Shown one piece after another: positions 9,179-61,995 of a stretch of 64,000 bases of DNA (position 1 is the stretch's first letter; each line of letters begins with the position of its first letter). The notes under the pieces were generated by a model. That model was not told where the DNA came from and ran no database searches. It was given only the letters and a program-made list of their open reading frames with translations. The stretch lies in contig NC_054703.1 of assembly GCF_016097555.1 (NCBI RefSeq), forward strand, positions 19,606,979 to 19,670,978, in the 5' to 3' direction. The stretch comes from Gigantopelta aegis. Taxonomy: Eukaryota; Mollusca; Gastropoda; Neomphalida; Peltospiridae. The position numbers and the translations under genes were made by a program.

Positions 9179-12100
9179 CATATATTTTTGGGGGTACAGT
9201 GTATTTTTGTTAAATCTGTTTTATGTTCTTAATTATCTTTGTTTAAAAATTAATACAAATTTGTTGTTTTTTAAGGATTGATATGCATTTAATGTTTAGG
9301 GCTGTTAAATCTTTATTGATGTCACTGTATTCTGCAGTACCAAACACTAGACTTAAACAAGTGGTGCTCATAATTCCAGATTTGATGCATAAATATTTTT
9401 ACAATTATATCTGTTAATTAATTTTACAATGATGCATTGCTTAAAACATAATCCCAGTTGTGTTTTTTACAATCCCATTAGACATGTGGCCTTTACAAAA
9501 ATCCTGGACAAAAAATCTGAAGCCACAAATTGAATTGCCAATAGAGGCCAGGTCTGTACTATTTTAAAAGAGAAAGACAAAATGTTTTACAGGTATGTTG
9601 CTACATCTGTTTTGATGGGGTTTTTTAATAAAAAAATTAATTGAATTAGATCTCAGTTTGTAGATATGTAGTCCATACAGTTATTGAATGTAAATTTTCT
9701 TTTCATAATAATATCTGATCTCTTAATTGTATGTACATTAGGTGACCACAAACAGGGTAACCGTGACACATTGGAAGGTTTTGGCCATAGATTGGTTTTT
9801 GACGTCAGACCAGACTATTGAAAAGGGGGTTACAATTGCAACTATTGCTTTCCTGTCCTTGACAGGAGCCGGAATAAGTCGACACCTGCACCCATGCGCT
9901 ACATCGCTACATCGCTACATCGGCTTGCTCTAAATGCATGTACACATTAAGCCCTATGAATTGACCTGACCTGTAATTATTGACAGGTCAGGTCAAGTAT
10001 TAGTGAAAATAGAAATCTTGATTTCGCTCATTTGATATGTTTTGAAACAATTGTAAGATAAATTGTATTTATTAATCAAATGGGCACTCTTAACTGAGGA
10101 AATAAAAATCATAATTGCTCAATGAACAATTATGCATTTCTGTATTCGACAAATTGGCACTTGCAAATCAAATACCTTGTTGGTACTAATTAATTTGAAT
10201 CATCACAATTTGGCAAATGCAAAATTTACAACTCTTTATTCATGAATTTTGTAATAAATAGAATGAAAAAGAAACAAACAAACTTGATAGCACTTACTGT
10301 CTGTCATGAAATAATTTCCATTTATTATGTTCTTGTGACCAGTGAAAATTAGTTTATTCAAGACAATAAATTAGATAATAACTGGTCACTCCCAGTATAA
10401 TCGTCTGTTCAATGGCCTCTCATGTACAGCTAATAGCCAATACATGTATGTATTTGTGTACTGGGGTGTTGGTAAACACTCATTCATTCTCATGTACTAT
10501 TCTTATGTATCGCTAAAGATTGAAAGGCATCCTAAGTCAAGAAGCATCCTATTTTACATTCAGCTTGTTTATTACGAATCTGTGCACGCATGAATTTTGA
10601 CAACACAATAATTATGAACCAGGAATTACTTGGTACCAATGAAGAAAAATAAAATGAGGAAAAAACAGGTAAAAAGTTATTTTTATACAAAATGCATTAT
10701 ACACGATCGTTATTTTAAATAGTAGCATTGATTAAAATCATATGCTATATTAATACCTACCTACATCTAAATAATCAGCATTTGTCAACAGCGAAAGAAT
10801 CCTGTTGCTGTCACATCTGCTTTCATCTTTGGATCATGTCACGTGACGTACATATTCTTTCAACATAAAATGAAGTATATGGAAGCCCATCTTACCTATA
10901 GCATGCTTTCCAATCCAGGCCTTGGAATGTACACATTCAGCTGTGGCATGTGTGTTATCTATCGATTGGAATACACTGGTACGGTTATAAACATGTTATT
11001 AATTGATATTTGTAGTTAACTGAATAAGGTAATAGATCAAATAATCAAATTGATCGTGCAATTACAATGCGTGTGCATTGTAGCTATTTTCCCGTTAATA
11101 GGATCTTCACGATCCTACGAGGATATACCTTACCTTATGGGTGGGGTGGGGTGAAAAGGAAAACAAAAAGAACAACCCTAAAATAAAACTGAATATGTAA
11201 TTAGTGGATTTAAATAGCATACTTTTTTGAAAGATTTTTTTAAGTCATGGCTGCACTTGATTGTACTTTATTTCAGCTTTTCTATAGTTTACAACTGGCT
11301 AGAAGAGCAAGCTCCTATCTCCCTTGTTCAACAGTATTTTGTGTTTGTAGCACTGCGATGAATTTAAAACATAATAAACATAAGCATGTTTTTGTTATAA
11401 TTTTTAATGTTATTTTATTTCTAACTTGTATTTATGTGACTGTGTGACCTTTGAAGTTGTGAATTGTATACCATATCTACATATCTATGTCTTTCGCTTT
11501 GATCTCACTATAGCAGAGCTTTGGCCTCCATCTTTGAGGAGAACCTATTTGTTAGCACTGAACTTGTAGATTGTTATTCACAGGTGTAAGACCACTACAC
11601 ACTCTTCTTTCTCACCAACCACTAACAATTAATACACTGTCATGGACAGTCCAGATAGCTGAGGTATGTGTCCAGGGCAGCATGCTTGAATCTTAATTGA
11701 ATATAAGCACGAAAATAAGTTGAAATGAAATGTTTGTTAAAGTTGGTGTTTCAGTGATGTCATTAAGAATAGAAGTAACAAGTGAAATTGAAGTTATAGC
11801 CACTTATTGTCATGTCAAGTAACATAGGTTGATAATATAGCCAAATATGAGATGCTTTCATTGTTTATCTTACATGTTAATTTTATACACAAACAGTAAG
11901 CTAATACATATATTAACCAATCAGGAACAATCTTACAGATTCACATGTAACAGTGTTGTGATTGTTGGTTATACAATTGTACAGAACAATATAAAAGCTA
12001 ATATTAACCAATCAGGAAAAATATTACAAAAGCATATGGTATATAACTGTTGTCCAATCTAATAACTGACATATTAGATTGTTGCTTGTACAATTATACA

Positions 12101-13391: not shown

Positions 13392-13950
13392 TATCTAGCA
13401 TTAAGGTGGGTTTTCTTTCCTATTTTGTTTTTATCATTGAAATTGTTTTCTTCTGGGGGTTTTTAAACTTAACATTTTGGTTACCATAAATTCTCGATCA
13501 AGACCCTTTCTCTGATGTTTTTGTCCATGTAACATTGTTTTCCGGTACAAACGCAAAGACAATCTTAAACCACCTGTATTTTATTGAATTGTGAATATTT
13601 AGGTATACATGTATGTATGTAGAAGACACTTTTCTTTCTTTCTTTCTTTCATTTTTTTTTTTTGCACAAATGTGGGTGACAGAAAAATTATTTTATCAGT
13701 TTGTTTTGTTGGGGTGTGTGGTTTTTTTTTGTAAAAGGATATTTTTCACTTATATAACAGAAAAGGAAAATATTTTATGTAGATTTTATGTATATAGAAG
13801 TGATTTGCATATGGTTTATTTTCTATCCAGCTATGCATAAATACTATAAATACTGACACAAAAAAGATCAAATGTATCACGTTTGTCAAAGAAACCTTTT
13901 AGTTTACCAGTGTTGAACAACACTTCAGGCCATTTTCATACCGGCTGTTT

Positions 13951-23500: not shown

Positions 23501-26500
23501 ACATTAACACATAAATAAAACTAAAATGCATTTCATATTGTTGGTTCTTACTTGATTGACTTCAGGACTGCATCCAAATATCAATAAAGAAATTGGTTTA
23601 AACAATATTTTTATTAGCAAATCAAATTTGAGATTGGCCAACAGGCAAGTGCCTATATTAAGGCCTCTCCCTACATTTAACAAATATACATGTTATACAT
23701 CAAGATGGCTAGAACAATATTACAATAAAGATAACACGGATAGTTGGGGGAATAGAAGAGAGGAGTGTGTAGAAGAAACAAAGAATAAATAGCAAACAGT
23801 TAGAATGGTTAAATGGTTAAATGATCTCGAAACGCTTACTATTAATAAGAAAATTCTGAACAGATTTAAATATAGAGATATTTTCTTGGACACTTAAATT
23901 TGAATCTCCAAATAGCAAAGTATCACACTTGAGATTATAATAGTTCAGTAAATGGGTATTGCGAGCTGCAACATATATTGGGCAAAAACATAGAAAATGT
24001 TCTGCATCTTCAACTGGATGGCCACAAGTACAAGAAGGGGTATCTGTTACATGTCGTACAAATTTGTGACCATACAAATCACTGGTACCCAAACGGAGTC
24101 GGCTATGTAGAATCTGTTGCCATCTATCACCTTCATAAAAATAAGATGGAACAGCAGGGTCGTGTTTGTTCATTTGTATTTTAAACAATTTTAATGAAGA
24201 AGAATTTCTAATATCAGGCAAAAGATTATTCCATAATTTTACTGCTGAAGGAAAGAAGGAGTTCGAAAACAATTTTGTTTGACAAAAATATGTTTGTAGA
24301 TTCTCTTCATTACGCATGTAGTATTCATTACTTTCTGCAGCAGAGCGAGGTAGTTGTAAGGTTGAAAAAGTTAGTAACATGTTATTTGAAAGTTTATATA
24401 TCATACAGAGTTTGTCGCTTCCTCCTTTCTAGTAAAGGTATGAAACCGGTTTCTCTATATAACAATTGGTGAGATGTTCCTCTACAGCACCACAAATTGT
24501 ACGAAGAGCATCTAATTGGAGATTTTCAAGGGTGTTTGCCTGATATATAGTACAGTTGTCCCAAATTATATCTGCATAGTCAAATATGGGAAGAATAAAC
24601 AATCTATATATTTTTTCTAATGCCTTTCTAGATAACCTGAATTTGAATGAATGAAGAACATTTATCATTTTACTGGCCTTATCCACAATATCTTTTATAC
24701 AACAGTCCTATAAATAAAGGAATTGAATGTTTGTTTAATGACACCTCAGCACATTTTACACTACAGTTATATGAAGTCTAACATGGTTATTTTGACACTT
24801 AACGAGTACAAGAAGGAAACACAGGCTACTCCCACCAAAAAGCAACAAGAGGTCCTTTGTATGCACATTTCCACAGACAGGAAAGCACATACTAATACCT
24901 TTGATACACAAGTCATGGGGGAGGTGAGGGCTGGTTGAATAGGAGAAAACCCTCAAAAGACTGATCAGACACAAGATATAGCAATCATAAAAAAACGGAG
25001 TGGATGGATAGATAGATGGAAGGGTGCTCTGATAGACGGACATCCTGACAACACAAACTGGCAGAAAAAAAATCTGTATAAGCGCTGTATGACTGACCTG
25101 GATCCCACCCCTGCTGAATACCAGATTCCAGACTGCTGAATAATGAAACTCTGTACCCATCACACCCCAGACAAGCACTGTATGACTGACCTGAATCTCA
25201 CCCCTGCTGAATACCAGATTCCAGACTGCTGAATAATGAAACTCTGTACCCATCACACCCCAGACAAGCACTGTATGACTGACCTGGATCTCACCCCTGC
25301 TGAATACCAGATTCCAGACTGCTGAATAATGAAACTCTGTACCCATCACACCCCAGACAAGCACTGTATGACTGACCTGGATCTCACCCCTGCTGAATAC
25401 CAGATTCCAGACTGCTGAATAATGAAACCCTGTACCCATCACACCCCAGACCAGCACTGTATCATTTAGCTACATTCCATCTTATGCCAAATATCAGTCT
25501 ACAGAGTTGAGTGATTAAGACTCTATACCTGTTTTCTGAATTCTTCCTCCTCTGCGAGCTGAGCCTGCATTCTCATGGTCTTGTACTGCATCTGTTTCTG
25601 GTGGGTCTGCTGTAGATCTATTCTCTGTCGTAACTTCCTCTCCACTTGCTCCTGTACAATCAAACAACAGTCAAAAATAATATCAGGGTTCAAATTTTAA
25701 CACAGCACTGACAGCAATTGCCATGCACCCCCCCCCCCCCCCAATTTAAATTCAACCACTGTAATATTAAAGAATAAAAAAAAAAATAACTGTATTCATC
25801 CACACCATATAAAATAGCACTTTACTATTTAAACACAAAACTGTAGTTTCTTGTAAAAGCTATAATAAATTTTTTGGCAATGTTTTCTCATAATTTTTTT
25901 TTGGTTTTTTACTTTATTTTCATCAATATAGATAAAGACAAAACAATAGTTAAATTGAAGAAGTATACCATCAATGGATGTAGGTGAGCACAGGATGGAT
26001 ATAATTAATTACTGTGGAATATATTTGTCTGTATGTTACCTTTTCCATCTGTCGGTCCTTCTCCTGCTGTTCTTCCATATACAGATCGAGTCTCACTCTC
26101 TCCATCTCTTCACGCTCTGCTTCCTTCGAAGCAATCTGTTCCGACAACTGTAAATAAAATAAATAAGATAAATACATAAATAAGTAAATAAATAAGTAAA
26201 TAAGTAAATAAGTAAATAAATAAGTAAATAAATAAATAAATAAATAAATAAATGAAGAAAGATGAAAGAAAAATAGATAAAACATAATAAAGAAAATAAC
26301 AATAATAAAACAGAAAAACTAATTAAAAATAAAATTAATTAATGTATCGACTGAAAAATAACAATAATATAATAAAATCAACTGGAACATTGAAAATGTG
26401 CCGATGACGATGCACACCACTCGAATGTTTATGCTGTAACTCTAACTTAACCCTAACTCAAGTTTCAGAATGATCCAGTCAAAACTTTAAGACTTAGACT

Positions 26501-29500
26501 GATATTTTTCAATGTCAAACATAATTTTAATTCACATCAAGCATTCTGAGAGTAGTGCTGAAAGCAATAAATGTTCCCTACTGGGCCCAACAAATCTGCG
26601 TATCCCCTAAGTTAAGGGACATAACACGACTGGTAAAACTACGAACCTTGTTCTGAATTTACTAATACAACTGTTAAAAGTACAAACCTCCTTCTGTATT
26701 TAGTAATACGACTGTTAAAAGTACAAACCTCCTTCTGAATTTAGTAATACGACTGTTAAAAGTACGAACCTCATTCTGAATTTAGTAATACGACTGTTAA
26801 AAGTACGAACCTCATTCTGAATTAAGTAATACGACTGTTAAAAGTACGAACCTCATTCTGAATTAAGTAATACGACTGTTAAAAGTACGAACCTCATTCT
26901 GAATTAAGTAATACGACTGTTAAAAGTACGAACCTCATTCTGAATTTAGTAGTACGAACCTCGTTCTGAATTTAGTAATACGACTGTTAAAAGTACGAAT
27001 CTCGTTCTGAATTAAGTAATACGACTGTTAAAAGTACGAACCTCATTCTGAATTAATACGACTGTTAAAAGTACGAACCTCATTCTGAATTAAGTAATAC
27101 GACTGTTAAAAGTACGAACCTCATTCTGAATTAAGTAATACGACTGTTAAAAGTACGAACCTCATTCTGAATTAAGTAATACGACTGTTAAAAGTACGAA
27201 CCTCATTCTGAATTAAGTAATACGACTGTTAAAAGTACGAACCTCATTCTGAATTAAGTAATACGACTGTTAAAAGTACGAACCTCCTTCTGAATTAAGT
27301 AATACGACTGTTAAAAGTACGAACCTCATTCTGAATTAAGTAATACGACTGTTAAAAGTACGAACCTCATTCTGAATTAAGTAATACGACTGTTAAAAGT
27401 ATGAACCTCTTTCTGAATTAAGTAATACGACTGTTAAAAGTACGAACCTCTTTCTGAATTTAGTAATACGACTGTTAAAAGTACGAACCTCTTTCTGAAT
27501 TTAGTAATACGACTGGTAAAGTACGAATCTCATTCTGAATTAATACGACTGTTAAAAGTACGAATCTCGTTCTGAATTTAGTAATACAACTGTTAAAAGT
27601 ACGTACTTCCTTCTGAATTTAGTAATACAACTGTTAAAAGTACGAACCTCGTTCTGAATTTAGTAATACGACTGTTAAAAGTACGAACTTCCTTCTGAAT
27701 TTAGTAATACGACTGTTAAAAGTACGAACCTCATTCTGAATTAAGTAATACAACTGTTAAAGTACGAACTTCCTTCTGAATTTAGTAATACAACTGTTAA
27801 AAGTACGAACCTCGTTCTGAATTTAGTAATACGACTGGTAAAAGTACGAACATCCTTCTGAATTTAGTAATACAACTGTTAAAAGTACGAACCTCGTTCT
27901 GAATTTAGTAATACGACTGGTAAAAGTATGAACCTCGTTCTGAATATAGTAATACGACTGGTAAAAGTACGAACCTCCTTCTGGAGTCTCTCCATCATCT
28001 CCTCGCGCTGTTTCTTCTGCATCTTCTGCCCAGTGTCGCGCTCATGCTGCAAGTTGGCGTACTCAATGATGCGGCGGTTTTCCGCCTCCATGCGCTCACG
28101 TTCCTGCATCTTCCACTCCTCACGCGCCTTCTTAAACTCGTCGATGTACCGCTGGGTCATCTGCCGTTTCATCATCTGTCGCTCGATCTCCCTACAAACA
28201 AATATCAACATGTCATACAATCCAGGACCCTGTTTCATGAAACAAATGAAGCTAAGGTTCATTGTAGTGACTTACATCAAATTAGGGATGGGACGGTTTC
28301 GCTTTTTTTATTTTTGGTTCGGTTTGGGTTTTTTGGTCCACGGTTCAATTTATTTGTGGTTCGGTTTATTCACGATAGTAGTACAAGTACGCCAATTATC
28401 ATACATACATTTTAATAAACTATTTTACTATTTTAATTCTAAATACATTTGTATAAAATTATATCTTGACTAGAAAACAAAAATTGGATTTTTACCATGT
28501 CATGTTAGTGTGTTGGGTCAGGGATATTTGGGCTATGAGTCCCCCAGGATTTGAGTTCAGAGAATTGGTAAAATAATTTGGGGGCGAGAATGCTAAGGAT
28601 AGTCTCTCCGGTGTTTTTAAAATTCAGTTGTCTTTAGATGCATTCTGGCAAACATAATATATGGATGTGACCGTGTCATGTATATGTTATAGAAATCTAA
28701 AAGAAAGATATATGTCAAGACATATTTCTGTAATGTTTATTATTACTTTGATGATGTCAAATCTTTGATGAGAAGTATAGATATTTTTTAAATATGGATT
28801 ACTCGATATAAGCACAAATACATAACATATAGGCCTACTGTTGATTATTTAACTCAACACAAGTTACATAAAAAGCTATCACTGATTTAAAAAAAGAAAG
28901 AAGATAAGCAAACACAAGTGCATGCATATAATATACAATAGTGAATTATTTAACTAGTTATTATTATTTATTTATTTTTTGCTTGTACTGAAAGTGAAAA
29001 AATAAATCTGTAAAGATTTATTTTTAAAAATATATAAAAATTGCAAAGTAGTTTGCGTACATTGTAGTTCAGGAACTGTGGACAATTTCGTCCCGATAAA
29101 AACTTACAGAAATTAGCGATGTTGAATCATTTTAAATTAATATGACGGAAACTGGGTGCCATTTTATAATTCTTAAAGTTAACACGTGTTTACTTTTTTT
29201 TTTAATTTTGACAGCTTGGACAAAACATACTAAAAAAATTTATTCTCATGGCAGATTAATCACTGAGGTCAGTCCCTATTTTGGGATGTTAATTTTTTTA
29301 CAGACATTTGTGGGTTCTGTGCAGGATCCGAACAGCACCTATTGCCCGTGCAAACATGTCTGGTTTAAGGGAATCGAAAGCTGTGATTGGCCAAAATACT
29401 TTAAGGGTCATTGGGATTACCAGCAATGTGCGGAAATGTTTATACATGTACATTTTTTAAAAAACCCCACGAAATTGGGAAACAGTGCACCGAACCGTGG

Positions 29501-32500
29501 GCCTAAAATAGCAGTTTTAGGTAACATCAAATATGGCAGATATTTGATTTAGCTTTTCATTCATTTCAGATGGTAAATTAGCCACCTATATTTTCATGTT
29601 TACCTGTTATTTCTATTCCTAATGAAAAATAATAATTATAGCTTTTATAAGAAACTACAGTTTTGTTTTTAAATAGTAAAGTAACCTTATGATTAAAGAC
29701 TTCTGTACAAATAAGTTAAATAGTAGGGTACATGTAGTTCTAGACTATTTGGAATATATCGTGGATGTATTTGATGATACTGATGCAAGTAACTTTGCCA
29801 GTTGATGTCCAGACCGATCATTTCCAAATAAATAATATTGATGGTTGACATTTAAATAAGCCTTTCTTAGAATGTGAGCATGGTCAAATGGATGGAACAC
29901 AGCCACAAACCTGAGCACTTTTCTGGAGAAAACCCTCATAGGCCATGTTACCCCTATCGGGTTTACCCCTAGCCTCTTTACCCAACACCCTCCAAACCTC
30001 CTTTTTCCAACTGCCTCTCTAGGATAGCAGTTTCCCTCCCTCTATCCTCCATAGTGCTAAGAAAGAAAAGCCACTTACTTCTGATCCATTTCATAAATTT
30101 TTCACAACCTCCTACACTACCTCTATGTGATTCCTACTGCCCCCATATGACACCCCCACCCACGTTTTCCTTTATTTCCTCCATAATTAAATCACTCACT
30201 TCTGATCCTCCTTGTATATCTTGTGTACGATCTCGTCTATCATGAGTTTCTCCTTGTGACCCCCTACTGCCTCCCTGTATCCCCCCCCACCCCCCCCATT
30301 TCCCCACCTCTCCTCCATAGTACTGAATTCAAGTAAAAGTACTCACTTCTGATCCTCCTCGTATATCTTGCGTACGATCTCGTCTATCATGAGTTTCTCC
30401 TTTAGGAACTCCTCGTAGGCCTGCTGCCTCTTGTGCTCCTGCTCCTCCAGCTGTCTCTCGAGCTCCTGCTGGTAGCGGACCTGCTCCTTGTACCGTTCCA
30501 TCGTGCGGGCCTGCTCTGCCTCCTCCGCACGCTCATGCTGCTCCTTCATCTCACGCGCAATCTCAGACTCTCGCTTCTGTAATGTAAACACACTTTTACT
30601 TCTCATAATGAACTAAGGGTGGACAACCCTACTGAGTTAGACTCTCACTTCTGTAACGTAAACATGCTTTTACTTCTCATACTGAACTAAGGGGGGACAA
30701 CCCTACCGAGTTACACTCTCACTTCTGTAAGGTAAACACGCTTTTACTTCTCATACTGCACTAAGGGGGACAACCCTACTAACTCAAACTCTCGCTTCTG
30801 TAATGTAAACACGCTTTTACTTCTCATACTAAACTATATAAGGGGGACAACACTACTAACTCAGACTCTTGCTTCTGTACGGTAAACACGCTTTTACTTC
30901 TCATACTGAACTAAGGGGGACAACCCTACTAACTCAGATTCTTGCTTCTGTAAGATAAGCATGCTTTTACTTCTCATACTGAAGTTAACTTCTCAAACTG
31001 TACTTAGTCGATTACCCTACTTAGTTTTCTGATGTCAGACTCTCGCTTCTGTAACGTAAACATGCTTTTACTTCCGATACTGAACTAAGGGGGACAACCC
31101 TACTGAGTCAGACTCTCGCTACTGTAATGTAAACACGCTTTTACTTCTCATACTAAACTTAGGAGATTACCCTACTGAGTTTTCTGATGTAAATTGGTGG
31201 TTTTATTGTCAGACATTTAGCTTTATTGGTGATGTGTTAGGGTGACTCAGATGGGATGTACAGTGAGGTAGTTTATTTTGTTGTGTGTAATTACCAGTGT
31301 ACCATGGCCATTACAGTCACTTTATCAACCAAATATGAAAATAAACTGGAGGCATACTGAAAAATTACTGGAAACATACAGCAAATATACTTGAAATGTT
31401 TTGCAAATATACTGGGAGATATACTCCAAATATAGTGGAGACATACTGCAAATATACTGGAAACCTACTGCAAATATACTGGAAACATACTGCAAATATA
31501 CTGGAAACCTACTGCAAATATACTGGAAACATACTGCAAATATACTTGAAACCTACTGTAAATATACTGGAAACATACTGAAAACCTACTATAAATATGC
31601 TGAAAACCTACTGCAAACATATTGGAAACCTACTGCAGATATACTGGAAACCTACTGCAAATATACCTACGGCAAACATGCTCAAAACATATTGTAAACA
31701 TAATGTAAATATGCTGAAAACATACCATTTGATCAAACCTCAGAGCATCTTTCTCAGCCAGCTGGGCAGCTCGTTCCTTGTTCACGTAAGCAGCCTTAAG
31801 TTTTGCTTCCAACTCCCGCAGTTCCAGGCTGTGGAAAAAACACTCACAAATGAACAACACTTTGAGCATCTTCTCTTTCATGAATAATAACCTAACCTCT
31901 TTAACATGTATGTGTTTTCCCCTGCTAATCTGTACTGGTCCGAATGTCTCAACATCCACCGACTGGCTAAACTGTTCTACTGTCAGGGCTTTAGATTGCA
32001 TCAAAGTCAAAGCGATAAACGTTATTGTATATGTATATATGCCCAAAATAATCACACCCAAATTAAGTACAAAGATGCTGACCTCAAAATATTTCACCTC
32101 AAAACCACTGAAATGTTAAGTTTAATTAGATCAAAATAATCTGAAATGCATTTGTGAATATTGATAACTCTCCAACAGCTGTTAATGACAGTACAGAACT
32201 AAACCGACCTTCCTGCACTCACAAAACATAGGAAGTCCCCGTTGTGACCAAATTAATGAAAGCTAAAGCTTTGACTTTGTCACGGGTAAGCAAATTTCAG
32301 TCCTTATTTTCCTGGAGGTCAACATATATAACTTAAAAGTTAAAGAATGGTGTATAGTAATTGAACACAATTAACCAGGGGTGGGGAAAAGCACTTTTTC
32401 CCCGGTCTGGGACCGATTCTCGATCTCTGAGACCGAAATTATTTTTACAAAATGTGTGTTTTGACGGTCCCACTTTTGTCATTCTAGTCGGCCCGAAGCA

Positions 32501-34857: not shown

Positions 34858-37800
34858 CTAATGTATTTTTATATTTACTAACCCGGATGACTGGCATTTT
34901 TTTTTTTTTTAATAGACCTACAAGCCTGGAACATGATGAATTTCTCGGCAGTCACAGTGTAATGACTAGATGTTAAGATACAATGTACACAATGTATATG
35001 AAAATAATGTTATACTGACAGTCCAGGTAGAAGGAAGGATTGTAATCTGCATGGTTAATTATGTTTTAAGCAAATCGTATTTTATTTTATTGACAAACAC
35101 TAAAATATTGTTCTATGTCCAAACTTAATGTTTTCTCATAGTATAATGTTGTTTGGATATTGATAAATGTATTTACTTTACCATTTGAAAAAGTTTAAGT
35201 TGGGCAAGTAAAAGTGCACGAACACTGCCACTTAGATATTGCTCGAATCTTTGTAAACTTCAGATAGGATGAATAAATATGGAAAGACAAGTTGAGGTTG
35301 AAAGTTAATGAAGAGCAGGGAACATTTTGTTCAGTATTAAGTCACAATTCGCTATGCAAGTTTCAGAGATTGCTACAAAATTTAAAACATTAAACAGTAG
35401 GGGAGGGGAGGGTTAGTTGAGCCACTGGGTTAGTTGAGCCACCCCTTCCCATTTCTCTGTAAAGAGTACTTTCAGACAGGTGGTGACACCTATTGACAGC
35501 TGATGACCCACTTTGTCCTTGACCTAAGAAATAACATGTCTGCCATTTGTATAAAATTTGAGAAGGAAAAGAGTGTTTTTCACATGGAAAAGTTGATTTC
35601 AACAAACAAGGTAAGTTGTTTACTATTTAAATAACTGTAAAGATTGTTAAAGTTATATTAGTGGTAATCAATAGTATAATAACTTATGTCTTTTCAAAAC
35701 AAGTTTGAATCAAATACAAGACATAACTTTTCCTTGATTAAGCAAAATGTCAAAATGGTGGGAATGGGGTAATTTGTGCCACCTTGAGTTGGGCAAGTTG
35801 TGCCAGTTGGGGCAAGTTGAGCTATGGCTCATTTTACCCCATTGTATTTTTCAGGATGTTTTGTGGAAGACCTAAACATGTAGATATATAACACATAATA
35901 TGCATCAGTATGCCACGTCTCTATAAACGAAAAACCAGAAGGGGAAATACCCCATAGATATCTTAGAGAGAGCTGCTGCGGATGTTAGAGGTGGTAAAAG
36001 TATACGCTCTGCAGCTAAGGATTTTGGAGTGGACAGAATGACATTAAAGCGTTTTATCTCAAAGCGTGATGTTGACCCTGAAGCTATAACTGGATATTCT
36101 GCCATCTCTAGATCACATGCAGTGTTCACACCCAAAATGGAAGAGGATCTTGCAAATCATGTGAAACAGCTTTGTGATCAATTCCATGGTTTATCTCTAC
36201 AAAAATGTCTTAAACTTGCATATGAATTTGCATCATGTAACAATCTGCTTATGCCAGACAATTGGCAAAGAGATGGTAAAGCAGGAAAGGACTGGTGGTT
36301 TGGTTTCAAACAAAGACGTCACCTAACAATTCGCAGCCCTGAGGCAACATCTATGGCTAGAGCTACGGCTTTTAACAAACATTCTGTCAGTCAATTCTAT
36401 GACAATTCTGCAGCTGTAATGGACAAGTATCACTTCCAACCTCAAGATATTTATAATACTGACAAAACTGGTTGTACAACGGTGCAGAGGCCTAGTAAAA
36501 TCATTGCTGAACAAGGGAGAAAGCAGGTGGGATCCATAACCTCTGGTGAACGAGGACAGTTAGTAACAGTAGTTTATACCATTGGAGCCTCTGGTAATGT
36601 GCTACCCCCAATGTTCATCTTTCCAAGAGTGAACTACCACGACCATTTCATCAGAGGTTCTCCAAATGGTTCAATTGGGCGTTGCACCAAAACAGGCTGG
36701 ATGAATGAGGATATATTTGTGGATTACTTACAACACATAATTCACCATACAAGATGCACACAAGAACGTAAAATACTTCTGATACTGGACAATCATGAAA
36801 GCCATGTTTCACTTCGTGTTGTAGACACTGCCAAAGCCAACGGAATAGTTTTGTTAACCTTGACACCTCACTGTTCCCACCGCCTTCAACCCTTGGATAG
36901 ATCAGTATATGGGTGGATGGATGCGTTCGAATCCAGGAAAGACTAACAATATACGACATCCCTACTCTGGTGAATGAAGCCCACCTGTCAGCGATAACAC
37001 CAAGAAATGTGCTATCTGGCTTTAAAAACACAGGGATCTATCCATATAACAGAGATTTGTTTGCAGACACTGACTTTGCAGATGCTGACTTTGCAGCCGC
37101 AATGGTCACTGATCGTCCCATTAAAGTAACACAGCCTGGCCACGAAGGGGATCAACCTGATTCCACTGATGATACCACTGCTTACTCCCTTACAGGTGCT
37201 CCTAGTTCATCAACTACTGAAGCTCAGTCTAATGCTGAACATGTAACTACAGATGAGATCCAGAACAGCATGGAAGGTCCGTCCACCTCTCTGAATTACT
37301 CTGAGGATGTGACAGGATATGTGTCACCATCTTCAATTTTGGAACTTCCTAAAGCAGAGCCACGCAAAAATGTAACTTCGCGTAAGAAAAGAAGCACCAA
37401 GATATTGACAGATACTCCAGTTCGAAATGAGATAGCAGCAGCTCTGGTTAATAGTAAACCCAGAGGGCAGAAGACAAACAAATCAGTTAAAAAGGCCCTG
37501 TTCAAAACCACAAATGTTCGGAAAAAACGACGAAAGGTGGCATTACCTCTTGACTCTAGTAGTTCCACTGATGATGATAGGGAAATGGAGTTGACCGACG
37601 AATCCGAATATGAAGATGATGGTGTTGACGAAATTATTCAAGGTGATTTTGTCATTGTCAAAGTAGCAGGAAAGACACGCGTCGTTCATTTCATTGCTAG
37701 TGTTGACTCTATTGACGGTGATGAATTTGAAGGTGTTTTTCTTCGAAAAGTATCTGGGAAAGTTCAAACTGGACCTAGTACCTTTGTCAAAAACCCTGAT

Positions 37801-40800
37801 GATGTTGCTTCCTTCCCTCGTGAAGACATTGTATATAAATTGCCTGAGCCAAACCAAGCTGGAGGTACAGTTTGTAGAGCAAATCAGTTAATTTTCAACT
37901 GTGACCTTAGCTTGTGGAACCTATAGGCTAACATTAATATCTATGTCTATAGCAAGCTGTTGACATTACAAAGGTATACCCAGTGAAAGCTTTACTGATA
38001 CCAAGATGGTTTTGTTTGACATTTTGTTAATGATGTGTTTTTCCAATTAATAGTAACCATGTTTGTGCATTCTGAAAACAAAAAACATTTACTGACATTA
38101 AAATTGTTATGTTTGACATTTTATGATTAATTGCCTTTTGTTGTTTGGTTACTGTAGAGTTTTGAAGAACGCTTTTTATTATATGTGTGTTCACATTTCT
38201 AGTAACCATGTTTGCATTACTAAAGTGCATTCAGAGAGCCGTATTGATGTTAAGACCGCTATTTTTGACCTGTCAGACCACATGTATTTGATCTATCATG
38301 CTAGCATCACTGGTAAGTATGAATGACATGATGATGTATGCATTACAATATTGATCATCCTCTAATATCTCATATCTTACACACAGGACACAACTTTGTA
38401 AAAAGTGGCTCAACTAACCCGCCCCTCCCCTAGTTGTTAATAAATTTTCAGTTGACAAGAAATATTGTTAATCACAATTTTGAAAACAAAATGTTCCTTG
38501 AAGAGCCCAGCTCAGCAACCTCTGTCTAGCTCTAAAATTTTGCCGTAATATCTAAATATTACATTTCCAAAATTGTAGAAACCCAGTTAAAATCAAATTC
38601 TCCAATTGTTTTTCAAACTGCAGTTTGCAAAGCTGGCATGTACCAGAGCCAGCCACGGGACCACTGAGCTACGTTAACCCCTGCAAAACGAACTGACCTA
38701 GTTTCGCGAATCTGCTGCCGTGTTTTCTCATTTCTCAGTTCTTCCTGTTTCTTCCTTGCCAGCTCCCGTGCCAAATTCTCCTCCTGTTCGTACTGCTGAC
38801 TCTTGATCAACCGGTCGCGCTCCGCCTTAAGTAAACACAACTCACATGGTTACTTTCAACTCTACTTCACACTCATGTGGAAAATTCAAATATATCATTA
38901 AAATTACATAAAATGGGGAATTTAAACTGCAAATAAAAAAAATATAAAAAAGCAAACGGGTGCTGATTCAAAGGCAGGCTGCTTAGGGTGCACACCCTAT
39001 CCTCCAAATTTAATGTGCCCTGAAAATTCTATTTAAAGTATGAATTTAATGGATTTGTCTCACTGGTGAAGATATAATCTTTGGGGTGAGCTAGATGTTT
39101 CTAACGGAAGATTAATTTTTAATAATGCATGTTAGTTTATTTGTATGTGCTTTTTTGTTCATAATGCACCACCCCCACCCCACTAGGAAAATCTGGCATC
39201 TGCATTTGATGGAGAAAGGGTGAAAACCTGCTGCTAGCACCGGCCACTTCTCCCAAAACAGCAGAGCAGTGGATCTTTTAAACATGCACTTTCCCATTCA
39301 TGTATCATAGTCTGGATTGGACGGGAAACGTCCCAGGTCCATCAAGAGCGATGAGAGTGAGTCCAGTGTTCTCGCTGGGTGAAAATTAAAGGAGGGCGGC
39401 CGCTCGGCACCACACCCTTCAAAAAAAAAAAAAAAAAAAAACACCAATAAACGAAAAGAAAAAAAAAAAAAAAAAGGGGGGTGGGGGGTGGGGTGAGTAG
39501 TTTGGTTACCATATTGTTGTGTGTTGGTAGACTTTGTGAAAAAACATACTCCTTATTTTGCCTACAAAAAAGTGCAAAGGGGTTTATAAAAAGACTCGTC
39601 TTTTAATTGAACCGAAGATGATATCGGTCTGACATTTACGGGCAGTTCCGGTTTTGCTGGACCGATCAGTTTTAATATTATTATTTTTAATAAAGATTTC
39701 AAGATATACGAAAAACAATAAAGATGTTTGTAAAGTGATCTCCTAATGTCAGATACATTTTTGTTATTTCCATCTTCATCGAATGAATCAATAGCTGTGA
39801 TAAAATATTATCGCCAGCTGATAAAAAGTAGTTTTGTTTTTGTAAAGACGGTGTAAATATTATTTGGCACTCAAGATAAATGATTTTAATGATAAACACT
39901 ACCACTTCCGTTGTTTTTATAAGCGTTCATATCCCCTCAAAAAAATGAAAAGTATACAATATTTTATAAAGAACTGCTGAATAAACAGAATAACAGAAAG
40001 TAAAAATCATCAGTTTCAACCAATTATATCTGCAACTGAGGACAAAATATCAAACGATAGTTAGTGGAAACAAAAGACAGAATGACCGTTCTGATCACGT
40101 GACAAATTTGGCACCAAATAAGGTTTTTTTTCAATCGGAGATTGCCGAATCAGTAAAAAATTAAATGTTTTCATTGCTTACATAAAATATAACTTTTATT
40201 GTGTCTATCAAACATACAAATGGATACAAATATTGGACAAAATAGAGGCTGTTAAAAATACTGTTAAATTATGTTACGGTAACTGTCGTAAATGTTTCGT
40301 CAATTGCTTTTTTGTACACAACGCGGTTGGTTTCCTTTGATGTCCAGTGTGCAGACTGATCGTTGTTTTTTGTGTGGAAAAAAGTGCATTTGGAAATAGC
40401 AGAGATAGGTGCTGGAAAATAAAGAGGGGCGCTCAAAAATAAAGGAGGGCGGGGAACGTGAAAGGAGGGCGGCAAAATGGAATAGCGGGGAGGGGCGCCC
40501 TGCTTAAATGGAGCAGCGAGAACACTGGTCCATAGAGTGAGAGAAGAGTTGTATACGTACCCTCAGTATGGCTTCCTCCATCTCTCGCTCCCTGTTCTCG
40601 ACCTGCTGCCTGCGCAGGATGCGTTTGTCGACGACGCGGTTCTCACGCTCCAGGTTCGACTGGATCATCTTGGCGCGTGCCACATCGCGCAGCCGGTCAT
40701 GCTGCTTCTCCTCGTTCTCACGGTTCTGGTCCATCATCTTCGTAACCATGGCCGCACGACGTATCGTTGCCTGCAATCAAAATTAATGTAAAAGAAAATT

Positions 40801-48017: not shown

Positions 48018-51000
48018 GTGAGAATGCCAAGGCTGTGATTGGCTAATTCAGTCTTGACGTGCTGTGATTGGTACCCTGCTTCAGTTCATCACTTGTATGA
48101 TTTGAAACAAGGGTCATAAGTGGTTGATCGTGATTGCTTGTTGATCCAATCAATTCTCAGCCAGGATGGAAAGATCTGATTTCATTCGGTTGCATTGGTT
48201 GCCATGGCTAAAGACTTTAGTAAATGCCATCTTTGATGATGCTGTAGATGACTTTGGTTAAATATAATCTGGGCTTCTACAACGAGATGTTGAAGCCCTC
48301 TTTTTGTTCCCCACATTGTTGCAAGTGTAAATCATTCAAAGAGTTAGAATGCAAGGATGGAATGCCCTGCAAAAATTGTTGAAGACTTCTGAATTACTAA
48401 AAATAGATGACTGATGCATGGGCAAAAAAAGTGCTTCACAAAATTTGTCAGGGATTTCACCTTGGATGCATTCATACAGTAGTGAAGCAAGATAACTAAA
48501 GGCATTAAGTTATATAAGATTGAGTGCAATGATTGAAATGTTCTGTGAAAAATGCTAGACTTGACAACCCTTAACATGCATGACACACTGAAAGCAGGGC
48601 TATCTCTTGATGTTTGATCAAATTTGCCAGGTGCTAATTTTAGAAACAAAGTGAAATTTTATTTTAATTTTGTTAAAAAATATCATTTAATGATTGATAT
48701 TTTATTTGAAAATTACTTGTAATTACTAGATAATTTGGTGAAATGTTTTGCTCACCTAGAATAGCTCTGATTAAAGCAGTTTGTGAGAAGTGCTTCACAA
48801 AATTTGTCAGGGATTTCACCTGGAAATTTTATGCATTCATAGCAGTGAGTTGATAGTGAATGCAAAGGTTGAAATGCTCTGCAAAAATTGCTGAAGACTT
48901 CATATAGTTTTAGTCTGCATGAATTGTTGAAAATCATTCAAACATTAAAGAAGTGCTTCACAAACTTTGTCAGAGATTTCAACTTAAATTTGTATGCATT
49001 CATGAAACAATGAATAGTTTGTATTGGCAAAGAATGCAAAGGTTGAAATGCTCTGCAAAAATTGTTGAAGACTTGTGGTAAGCCTGATATGCATAATAAA
49101 AAAGTGCATCACAGAATGTTTCAGGGATTTTACCATAAATCTGTGCATTTGTCAAATTGATGTCCACAATTTGTTGTGATAAAGAATGCAAATGTTGAAA
49201 TGCTCTGCAAAAATTGCTGAAGACTTTTGTGGTAACCCTGATATGCATGATATATGCATGATAAAAAGTGCTTCACAAAATTTGTCAGAGATTTTACCAG
49301 TACATTTGTATGCATTCATAAAATGAACAGTTTATAAAGGTGAAGAATGCAAATGTTGAAATGCTCTACACAGAATTGGTGAAGACATGTACATAATAAC
49401 TAATATGCATTATGAAAAAAAGTGCTTCACAAAATGTCGGATTTTGCTAGTACATTCGTATGCATTCATAACATGAACCATTTGTAATGTTGAAGAATGC
49501 AAATGTTGAAATGCCCTGCAAAAATTGGTGAAGACTTCACACACCCTAATATGCATGAAAGTCATCAAGAAGTGCTTCACAAACTTTGTCAGGGATTCCT
49601 CCTCTTGAATGCATTCAAGCAATCTTTCTTGAGCATGTCAGATGAAGATTATTTGTTTCCTAAGATTGTATACATATAATCGCTTTCAAAACCAGGTTAT
49701 AATATTTAAAACAAAGTTAAATGGTGGGTTGCTAATGAAGAATTTTTTTTGTTTTTGAGTTAAACCTGATTGCTACTTGTAAATCAGGTAAATCTATCTT
49801 TTGTCTCCTAACCTAATTGCCGTGTACTAAGAATTTATGACATCATAAACCTGCTAAGAACTGCTCCCATGTTATGTTTACTTCAGTTGTAGATGTTGAA
49901 ACTACATGCATGTAAATGTATGCCAGTTGATAACAGAAAATTATTCATCTTAAAGAGTGAAGTACATGTAAAACTTAAACTAAACATTTTACAGTTCATT
50001 TTTGGTTCAGTCCATATCGGTGTGTTTATATCATGTTCATTTGTAGGCCTACATGTAATTGAATGATATGACACATCTGTTTGACAATATAAACAAAGTT
50101 GTATTACATTTCTGTTATTGGAGAATTTCACATCATATATGATAAAATAACCACTCATTGAGATAAATAAGAAATGAAGAAAATCATTGCCTTTAGGATT
50201 TGCATTCATCCAGGTGTAAGCAGGTAAAAACGGTTGAACTTTAACTTATAGGAGGTGGGTGACATTTTGTTTTTGTTTTCAAGTCCTTGAAGAGTAAACT
50301 TAATAAATTTTAGGACATACATTGTGTGTAATTGCATGCATTTGACACCTGTACATATACGAGACACACCTGTACATGTATGAGGCACGCCTGTACATGT
50401 ATGAGGCACACCTGTACATGTATGAGGCACGCCTGTACATGTATGAGGCACGCCTGTACATGTATGAGAGACACCTGAGTTTGGAACACAAAACAAATTT
50501 AAAAATGGCTACTGCTTGCGTGTACATCATGTAAGTAATTCAGCCAATGAAAGTTCTGGAAAGATAAATTTGAATATTTACACTTGCAACTTCTTTGCTT
50601 TCGTCGCCAAGCTTCACGAACATTCAGAAAACGAGACCGCAGCCCGCACCGTCGCCACAGAACATCCGATCCAACATCGCGCAGCAGCAGCAGGCCAGTG
50701 CCAAGAATCGCCGGCTGGCGCAGCAGTTTGCAAACAGACCCGGAATGGGTTCGCCTAATTCACTGTCCGAGGACGGGATGGCAAATAGAGTAGGTGTGGT
50801 CACTGCTATGAAGAATACAAAGGTAAACATGTATTTTATACATTAATTTCTGATAATACAGTAGTTGAAATACGAAGAGATTCAGGGGTTAATTCCACCT
50901 CCAGTATCTATCAACTTGGGACACTTTAGGAGCTGTAGCGATTAATAATTTTGTTTTGTTAGGTGCTTCCTGAAAACACTGGCCTAGCCAGGATTTTAGA

Positions 51001-54000
51001 TTGGAGGGTGGGCAACCCACACTATGTATGTATGATTTTATAAAATTTAATACAGTAATTTTTTTTATTAATGGTCTGATTGGGTTCTCCGCCCCCCACC
51101 CCCTTCTCGCTATGCCACTACCTCTACCTTAAAAGTGATGTCACCATTTGCAGTCGGGTGACAGATTATTTCAGAATTTTTCAACCACTAATAATTTCAA
51201 ATGTCTTCTAATGTCAACTTTTGCATCTAGTTCTAGATTCTGTGTTTGTGTTTAGCTCAATGTCTCATAAAATTATGTTCAGCCATTAAAACTTACATTT
51301 GCAAATGTTCATGTCAGTGTGAAAATTGTTTTACTTTTAGGTTGCCCTTTTCTTTTTCAAACTTGCATTTTCATTCATGATTGAAAAGAATTCAGCCAAA
51401 AAGAAATGATCATCGCTTTATTTTTTGTAAAAGCACCCATTAAGCTATTTCTCGTTCAGCCAGTGCACCACGACTGGTATACCAAAGGATGTGATATTTG
51501 TTATTCTGTTTATGGGATGGCACATATAAAAGATCCATTGCTACTAATGGAAAAATATAGCGGGTTTTCTTTATGTCAAATTACCAAATGTTTGACATCC
51601 AATAGCCAATAATTACTAAATTGATGTGATTTAGTCGTCGTTAAACAAAACAAATGTCAACTTTTTTTTCATGATTGAAAAGAAATTGGGAAGGAGGGGG
51701 AAGAAATCATTACTTCTTTTTTGCTCTTTTGTAAAAGCGTTTTAATCATCATAATAATAATAAGGGCAACATCCTGATTTTCAATTTTTGATTCTTTACA
51801 CAGAGAAGCCTACAGCAAAGACTGGGTCGCGGCAACATCAAAGCACGTCTCAACTTCGCAGCAGTTGGTCGGGGCGGGGACCAGATGGGTGGGCGTGGCC
51901 AACCGAGAGGTCGTGGCATGCGGCGAGGTCGTGGAGGTCAGCGCGGCTGGGTGAACCCCGTGGGAGACGGTGGCTTCATGTCTCGAGGTCGCGGCTTCCC
52001 TAGGGCCCGAGGACAGCCGGGAAGAGGAGGGTTCCGCAGTCTGTCAAGTAAGATGGCGTTGGCAAACCGGCAGCATTTTGTCGTCGTCTTCGTTAGCATG
52101 TTTTAGACGTACAGCCAATGTGTTTATTAAAGTATTTTTATAGATATATGCCAGAGCTTTAGATCACTCTAGGTACGGGATTTAGCCTAGTCGATTGAGT
52201 GCTTGCTTGAGGTGCTTGCATCACAAGATTGAACCACCTGGTTGGATCCATTCAGGTGATTGGGGTTTTCTTGTTCCAACCAGTGCACTACAACTGGACA
52301 AAGGCTGTGGTATGTGCTGTCCTATCTGGGAAAGTGCATATAAAGATCCCGTGCTGCATTAGGAAAAATGTAGCAGGTTTCCTCTTATGATTACGATTCA
52401 GAATTACCAAATGTTTGACATCCAATACCACGATGATTAATTAATCAATGTGCTCCAGTGGTGTCGTTAAACAAAACAAACTTCAGATCACTCTAATTTG
52501 GGTACAACAGTTTTTTTGTATCTGTTCTGAGCACACAAAGGCCTTTTTAGTGCAGTAATGTCTATAATAGCTGGTAAAGAGTTGTACGTATTCAGAAATA
52601 CATTACAGTAACAGTTAGGCCAAAAAAAATATATTACTTGTTTCCTATTACATGCTGGAAAAATATAGGGTAGGTAGGTAGGAAAAACATTTTATTTTGG
52701 AAAATAATTTTATTTATGGATATTAAATAAAGGTGTTGACTACCGATATCCAAAATAACCTCTGCATGTATAGAAATGCATTATGCAAACCATTCATCAC
52801 AGTGTTTTCCCTAGAAATGAAGTAAGGCATGGTAAAGTGATGTTTTGGGGGCATATTTTATGTGCACTTTTAATTATAAGGGCTTCTTTTTCCATTATAC
52901 AATTTTCAAAAGGACAAAAACCTTATGGCCATTTTATTTTCTATATCTATTTCATAACTTAATTTAAAAAAGGAAATATGTAGTACTATTCACATAGGTG
53001 TTTTTAAAGGCTTCTTTTTACATGGGCAACTTATAAATTTATAAAAGGCAAGGCATTTTGATTTTGAGGGCAACATGGTGCTAACCTATCTGTGGGAGAG
53101 TACATACAAAAGACCCCTTGCTGTTTAATAATAGGCAGAAGGTTTACTCTCAAACTAACACTTAACTTCTGTACTGGTCCAGGACAGACTTGGTTGCACC
53201 TTAATTGGATAGAAACCAGTAAATTAAGATATAACAATTTCTTTTTAAAGAGAACTGAAAAGAAGGGTTCTATATTTATCTGTCCAACAATAACATTTAA
53301 AAAAAATGTTATGAATATTATCTTTCCTAGTATATCTAAGAAATGGTAGACTTACCAATTTTATCATTTGCAATGTTAGTTTTATTCTGTATGCATCCAG
53401 TATTAAAGTACACATTTGGTTTGAAGCAATCAATTGGTCCAATGAATAGAAATGCAGTACAAGTGCTCAGGATGCTCAAACGAATGTTGAAAAGTAAAGT
53501 TTGATTTATTTAACGACGCCACTAGAGTACATTGATTTTTATCTTTAATATCGTCGGCTATTGGACGTCAAACACATGGTCATTCTGAAGTTCCCAGTGA
53601 CCACATACAAAAAATAACGAAACGCATCGAGATCAGTAAACTCCATCAGTATAGGTAAACATTCCCTCCCCTAGATTATCAGAATGTCACTAAACTTCTA
53701 CAAGGCCAGTTTGTCGCTGGAGTAAATAATTAAATACAGTTATTATTATTATTATTATTATAATTATTATTGTTATTATTATTATTAACCAGAACACCTC
53801 GCTACGCTAGATGTAGAGTAAATCGGAAAAGATCGCATATATTCGTGAAAACAATTTTCCAACTCTTCGCCCGATATCTCACGAAAGTTACCGAACTTCA
53901 ATTTGAAGGGAAGTAACTCCATCATTCAATTGTTAGAAGAAAACACTTCGTGGCTAACGGGTCGCCAATAAAACTAAATTTGTGACAGTAAAACCACCGA

Positions 54001-61091: not shown

Positions 61092-61667
61092 TTTAAGAGG
61101 CCATCTCTAGATACAGTGACATCTTTAAGAGGCCATCTCTAGATACAGTGACATCTTTAAGAGGCCATCTCTAGATACAGTGACATGTTTAAGAGGCCAT
61201 CTCTAGATACAGTGACATGTTTAAGAGGCCATCTCTAGATACAGTGACATGTTTAAGAGGCCATCTCTAGATACAGTGACAACTTTAAGAGGCCATCTCT
61301 AGATACAGTGACATGTTTAAGAGGCCATCTCAAGATACAGTGACATGTTTAAGAGGCCATCTCTAGATACAGTGACATGTTTAAGAGGCCATCTCTAGAT
61401 ACAGTGACATCTTTAAGAGGCCATCTCTAGATACAGTGACATCTTTAAGAGGCCATCTCTAGATACAGTGACATGTTTAAGAGGCCATCTCTAGATACAG
61501 TGACATGTTTAAGAGGCCATCTCTAGATACAGTGACAACTTTAAGAGGCCATCTCTAGATACAGTGACATGTTTAAGAGGCCATCTCTAGATACAGTGAC
61601 ATCTTTAAGAGGCCATCTCTAGATACAGTGACATCTTTAAGAGGCCATCTCTAGATACAGTGACATC
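61092..61667. repeat. 32-bp tandem repeat, 18 copies
   Basis: TTTAAGAGGCCATCTCTAGA then TACAGTGACATG, period 32. Variants end in CATG, CATC or CAAC and are arranged in a higher-order order (a block of about six to nine units seems repeated). It begins inside a SINE. Confidence 0.96.
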
Positions 61668-61995
61668 TTGACAACACCTGACAGTCCTTTTTTAAATAGG
61701 AGTACATAGCTTCAGCCAGGATACCGCTTAAAAACCAGACTTTTTATTTTATTTCATTCCACATGTGTACAGTTTAGATGGGTTTCGCTGTATTTGACAC
61801 TGGATGAACTGGTAACATTTTCGTACAAGGACTTTTGACTGCAAGACTGATCAGTGTTGTATTACACTTGTCACAGCTACCTGATGGTTATTTCCATACT
61901 TGATCTAGCATGTTATTAAGTGTTCGTTTTGTTTGCATTTTGTGTGACTTACAAACAATTGAATTAATGTCAGTTTACTACCAATGTTACTTCAG

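Follow-up and report, generated by a model that had tools for sequence, protein, structure and literature searches.

Do introns lengthen from their own splice junctions? The question is raised by the MNS1 gene of Gigantopelta aegis, located on the minus strand of a 64,000-nt stretch of contig NC_054703.1 (the window, in which positions are given unless otherwise indicated), where tandem arrays abut the borders of several exons. An earlier note on this DNA had proposed that six junctions of exons 4 to 8 border such arrays, from which the introns would have expanded. We have located the arrays by Tandem Repeats Finder (TRF) and scored 15 exonic and 20 intronic nt of each of 16 MNS1 borders against the neighbouring intron and against 200 shuffles. 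Four borders, the exon 5 acceptor and the exon 6, exon 5 and exon 4 donors, score above all 200 shuffles, and at the first three the repeated unit contains the junction itself together with exonic bases. Combined with the evidence described below, these results indicate that the MNS1 arrays are very probably minisatellites founded at the junctions, of the type described in amphioxus as mirages.

MNS1 exon borders

The spliced MNS1 product, in which the first exon is not identified, consists of 497 amino acids and matches the Pfam TPH domain; its alignment with sea urchin MNS1 (8snb, E 1.1e-131) covers residues 9-493 and is free of gaps. Its closest orthologues, as the best of 120 listed, are molluscan, being those of Patella vulgata and Batillaria (66%). 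Exons 4 (31726-31828), 5 (30347-30576), 6 (27975-28191), 7 (26040-26147) and 8 (25529-25651), all on the minus strand, were delimited by splice sites and reading frame and align ungapped to the orthologues. When nine orthologues, seven of them molluscan, were aligned, neither gap nor insertion was observed at the affected borders, indicating that these borders are exact and that the coding sequence is undisturbed there. Away from the affected borders, one Batillaria model is extended at its N-terminus and has a gap internally, and the Elysia model contains an insertion of 3 residues. Array copies appearing as insertions in the predicted proteins were considered and rejected, as none is present at these borders in the nine orthologues.

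Tandem arrays at MNS1 junctions

The highest border score, 60 against a shuffle maximum of 24, is observed at the exon 5 acceptor, where an array of ∼73-bp units occupies 30562-31180 (minus strand, as are all MNS1 arrays given here). It is detected by TRF as two rows, 30562-30983 and 31029-31180, separated by a 45-nt gap, and unit alignment resolves eight copies including the real one, each with ∼15 exonic nt and all eight with the AG. At the exon 6 donor, a 41-bp array at 26622-27983 fills most of intron 6 (score 53, shuffle maximum 21) with 33 copies, 32 plus the real one, that hold ∼9 exonic nt. GT is present in 28 of the 30 copies listed at 66% identity or more, the real one counted, and the last seven bases of exon 6 are matched in the two farthest copies listed and in one inner copy. 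The exon 5 donor is represented three times, with donors at 30347 (the real one), 30200 and ∼30079 and with up to 56 exonic nt copied; the exon end and donor recur at 30189-30255 with 94% identity over 67 nt (score 38, shuffle maximum 29), while the third copy (30063-30101) is much diverged, at 62% over 40 nt. Thus, the proposal of the earlier note that the junction lies inside the unit at these three borders is borne out by the exonic bases repeated in the copies. The fourth array, of 11/22-bp units at 31339-31725, consists of intronic bases only and has its edge exactly on the G of the exon 4 donor GT (score 35, shuffle maximum 26), as had also been proposed.

The remaining two junctions had been described as having arrays that run colinearly into them. 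At the exon 8 donor, the 93-bp array detected by TRF at 25080-25462 ends 66 nt short of the exon and the border test is negative (score 19, shuffle maximum 26). The 66-nt gap, 25463-25528, aligns to the array unit in register with a score of 21, which lies among the highest values from 500 shuffles (the top ten being 20-22), and it may therefore be a decayed copy by which the feature would extend over 25080-25528. Colinearity at this donor is consequently borderline. At the exon 7 acceptor it is not upheld: the adjacent sequence (26151-26253) is a plain (TTTA)n run, an ordinary microsatellite whose score, 27, does not exceed the shuffle maximum of 29. Of the six junctions originally described, four are therefore solid. 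Arrays constitute 82% of intron 4, or 86% when the 45-nt gap separating the TRF rows is included, and 74% of intron 6, or 80% when the TTTA run is included.

These introns are known from a single assembly, in which no second MNS1 copy or haplotype was found with which they could be compared. Artefactual assembly is nevertheless highly improbable as a source of the arrays, since the copies within them differ from one another (87% matches in the TRF rows of 41- and 73-bp units) and the same pattern is seen again in unrelated genes located on other contigs.

Array edges at exon borders in other genes

When the four MNS1 minisatellites are placed at random in MNS1 introns, ∼0.01% of trials leave at least three of them no more than 15 nt from a border. 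As MNS1 was chosen for its pattern, other genes of the same genome were sampled, a modest sample of two gene families with 68 exons, 46 chaperonin and 22 myosin. Their borders derive from domain matches and splice-site scores and some are approximate, being placed in some cases at the edge of the domain match where no acceptable splice site was present. Of 64 chaperonin domain matches 46 were counted, the exclusions being 17 isolated or small-contig matches and one match with internal stops (C4c, 10832-11386 of its own sequence), which is overlapped by a two-copy array and gave no borders; for myosin, 22 of 80 matches were used. Other genes of the window did not contribute borders, an exon scan of the window having given none that were convincing.

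Outside MNS1, significant copies were observed near 10 of 117 scored borders, and at 7 of the 117 the copies include at least 8 exonic nt. Eight near-border arrays were aligned, five of which contain clear copies of the junction. At one myosin donor, an 80-bp unit occurs six times including the real copy, each with ∼23 exonic nt followed by GTGAGT, and a second myosin donor has four copies, again including the real one; copying of ∼40 exonic nt is observed at a second myosin donor. Three arrays at chaperonin acceptors contain, with the real copies counted, 13 copies (AG in 12), 6 copies (AG in 6) and 2 copies. In the same gene families, one intron of a chaperonin gene (C4; L049, 3694-9776) carries ∼6 kb of a 34/102-bp array. 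The intron at a myosin exon donor (L059, ∼711-1130) contains many closely spaced CAG|GTAAAT-like motifs, which we take to resemble recursive splice sites.

As the pairwise border test lacks a control from intron interiors, enrichment was judged by edge density only. For the full set of 154 borders and 53 arrays, the density of exon-proximal array edges is 1.82 per kb in the 25 nt to either side of a border, 0.37 per kb at 25-60 nt and 0.14-0.43 per kb beyond 60 nt. With MNS1 omitted (136 borders, 48 arrays), the density within 25 nt is 1.47 per kb on the exonic side and 1.76 per kb on the intronic side, and 34 edges lie in the 122.6 kb beyond 60 nt. From this intron background 1.9 edges would be expected within 25 nt of a border and 11 are observed, with a Poisson probability of 5e-6 that treats the edges as independent. 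The density of array edges in this sample is thus approximately sixfold higher at junctions than in intron interiors. Randomisation of the same 48 arrays into any intron gave a mean of 4.3 edges, with 1 of 4000 trials as high as the 11 observed, and randomisation of each array within its own stretch gave a mean of 6.6, with 69 of 4000 as high; short fetched flanks inflate both of these null expectations. In the chaperonin genes alone, for which long introns were fetched, 6 edges are observed and 1.0 (2 of 3000 trials as high) or, with each array kept in the same intron, 1.7 (17 of 3000) are expected. The analysis that the earlier note had proposed, a comparison of array edges with exon borders across genes, therefore finds edges concentrated at borders in these 68 exons; the arrays with exonic bases, taken alone, do not reach significance under the stricter null, as described below.

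Origin of the arrays

The exonic bases repeated in the units encode conserved protein, which identifies the exon as the source of the unit. Searches of the 1.15-Gb genome, which skip simple repeats and very common words, were performed with three junction units. All matches fall at the unit's own locus, 4 of 4 for the exon 5 acceptor, 10 of 10 for the exon 6 donor and 4 of 4 for a chaperonin acceptor. It is therefore probable that the two MNS1 units arose where they now reside. Together with the large fraction of introns 4 and 6 that the arrays occupy, this supports the previous suggestion that arrays were founded at the junctions and that the introns lengthened as a result.

Several observations weigh against such an origin, either for individual arrays or as a general account, and each is best considered with the alternative that it favours. 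The exon 4 donor repeat has relatives of 69-82% identity at six other genomic places, so that its local birth is less certain, and a dispersed element or introner carrying splice sites from place to place would leave such relatives. As an explanation for the arrays at large we regard this as extremely unlikely and have rejected it, because the three junction units searched match their own loci only and the exon 4 donor repeat is the exception.

With MNS1 omitted, the class of arrays whose units carry exonic bases contributes 5 near-border edges, against 2.3 expected when arrays are placed into any intron (211 of 4000 trials as high) and 4.3 when each remains within its own stretch (1661 of 4000), the latter difference not being significant and the expectations being again inflated by short fetched flanks; in the chaperonin genes alone, the corresponding count is 3, against 0.50 (43 of 3000) or 0.84 (151 of 3000). 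A result that does not rise above the own-stretch null is what would be expected if, in a genome rich in minisatellites, some arrays land on borders by chance, and the window does contain many arrays away from MNS1 exons. Chance is, however, a very unlikely explanation for the pattern as a whole. Only the MNS1 arrays were preselected, and the excess of edges of all classes persists when they are omitted, against the intron background as well as in both randomisations. Moreover, random placement of unrelated repeats cannot yield units that share bases with the adjoining exon. The earlier argument that chance placement is improbable is therefore retained, for MNS1 and for the sampled genes.

Among the eight aligned near-border arrays, two have no copy of the junction and one has a single further copy that lacks the GT. 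In addition, half of the near-border arrays (7 of 14) end 0-22 nt before the junction is reached and contain no exonic bases, and these may have another origin. They are consistent with arrays arising anywhere in introns and with a peak of edges at borders produced by survivorship, selection on the exon blocking deletions there, or by a barrier to the spread of arrays, without any hotspot of birth. The abundance of minisatellites, which make up 18% of the intron sequence in the regions sampled, also accords with survivorship or a barrier. On the other side, the aligned units of the exonic class carry bases derived from the exon, indicating that these arrays were founded at the junction and did not spread to it. 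Survivorship or a barrier is thus a possible but doubtful account of the peak. It is likewise only a tentative suggestion that in this lineage junctions act as hotspots at which new tandem duplications arise, with introns growing chiefly from their own ends and the same process operating in molluscs and lancelets, perhaps as a general mode of intron growth that has been overlooked and that also provides spare splice sites from which new introns or exons can form.

Proposed mechanism and consequences for splicing

The founding of arrays at MNS1 junctions, as we propose it, would begin with tandem duplication of a junction-spanning segment that comprises anything from a few to some tens of exonic nt together with tens of intronic nt. 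The copying mechanism may be slippage or template switching, as the earlier note suggested, or unequal exchange. The extra copy would fall on the intron side, so that the protein would be unchanged as long as the spliceosome keeps to the exon-adjacent copy. The duplicate would then grow by ordinary minisatellite turnover, either slippage or unequal exchange, and the intron would lengthen outward from the junction, with selection preserving the exon copy. Accurate choice of site would be required, as each of the seven upstream exon 5 acceptors, if used, would bring stop codons.

Many of the additional copies retain splice dinucleotides, raising the possibility that spare sites are preserved by a functional role, for example in redundancy, recursive splicing or control of splicing. 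The intact AG in all eight exon 5 acceptor copies is in keeping with this, as is the rank of the splice dinucleotide in two of four arrays, in which it is the best conserved of 31 unit positions. In the remaining arrays its rank is 11th in one and 12th in the other, and use of any upstream exon 5 acceptor would introduce stop codons. Spare sites thus show no consistent advantage in conservation over other unit positions; selection on them was rejected as an explanation, being quite improbable, and no function is claimed.

Other features of the window and genome

Within MNS1 intron 3, an open frame at 35927-36946 (plus strand) matches DDE transposases (Pfam DDE_1, E 3.4e-14) and is overlapped by a second open frame, at 36901-37926 (plus strand), with no Pfam match; we presume this region (35927-37926) to be pogo/Tigger-like. 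Open frames in intron 8 (23817-24707, minus strand), also with no Pfam match, presumably represent the 3' end of a long interspersed nuclear element (LINE) reverse transcriptase. Stretches at 50574-50843 and 51792-52103 (plus strand), again with no Pfam match, are assumed to be CHTOP-like and include an RGG-rich exon. Many more minisatellites occur in the window outside MNS1, for example at 13949-14828, 16146-16742 and 61092-61669. Three-unit TTAGGG runs were observed at many places along two contigs (C1 and C2) among the matches listed. The whole genome has 1105 matches in forward and 1069 in reverse orientation, with 0 and 10 for the backward control.

Comparison with known systems

Tandem repeats spanning an exon-intron boundary are described as mirages in the amphioxus Adh3 gene and the globin genes BflGb6 and BflGb9 (PMC3087553), and mirages of PGBD5 and troponin C are described or cited in a later paper (PMC3902484). 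According to these two papers, amphioxus mirages occur at donors or acceptors, have units of 10 to ∼160 bp with splice signals in many copies, and are reported to show regular splicing and length instability. The MNS1 exon 5 acceptor, exon 6 donor and exon 5 donor units similarly hold the boundary with both exonic and intronic bases, and splice signals are similarly kept in many units at the exon 5 acceptor and, among the copies listed, at the exon 6 donor. The MNS1 exon 4 donor differs, as its units are intronic only. Whereas splicing of amphioxus mirages is reported as regular, MNS1 is known from its DNA, in which the predicted exons join to an ungapped, conserved protein. The phenomenon is therefore one already described in amphioxus, to which the present analysis adds a second phylum, the occurrence of four such junctions in one gene and a measured excess of array edges at junctions in unrelated genes.

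Tandem duplication near splice signals is shared with intron gain by tandem genomic duplication, as in the Rogers model, which is cited in PMC3087553, and in a potato RNA-dependent RNA polymerase (RdRp) case reported in PMC4974935. In that model and in the potato RdRp case a new intron is made, whereas in MNS1 it is probably existing introns that lengthen, and the protein is without insertion at the affected borders. Introners differ from the three junction units that match their own loci only, although the relatives of the exon 4 repeat at six loci again set that repeat apart. The arrays are like ordinary intronic variable number tandem repeats (VNTRs) in consisting of imperfect tandem copies within introns. 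To our knowledge, the units of ordinary VNTRs hold no bases of the neighbouring exon. No report of junction-spanning repeats in molluscs was found, by title or beginning of abstract, among the papers listed from the open literature, a scope that mostly excludes subscription papers.

Because a wrong choice of splice site breaks the protein, duplications that span a junction should be harmful or at best neutral, yet array edges are denser at junctions than elsewhere in the introns sampled. If this holds genome-wide, it points either to survivorship at splice sites or to a hotspot of mutation there, and intron growth would become directly testable in living populations. The present results extend mirages from lancelets to another phylum, and the sample suggests that several percent of splice junctions are affected, so that these arrays would not be mere curiosities. 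Arrays founded at junctions would let introns grow with no change in the protein.

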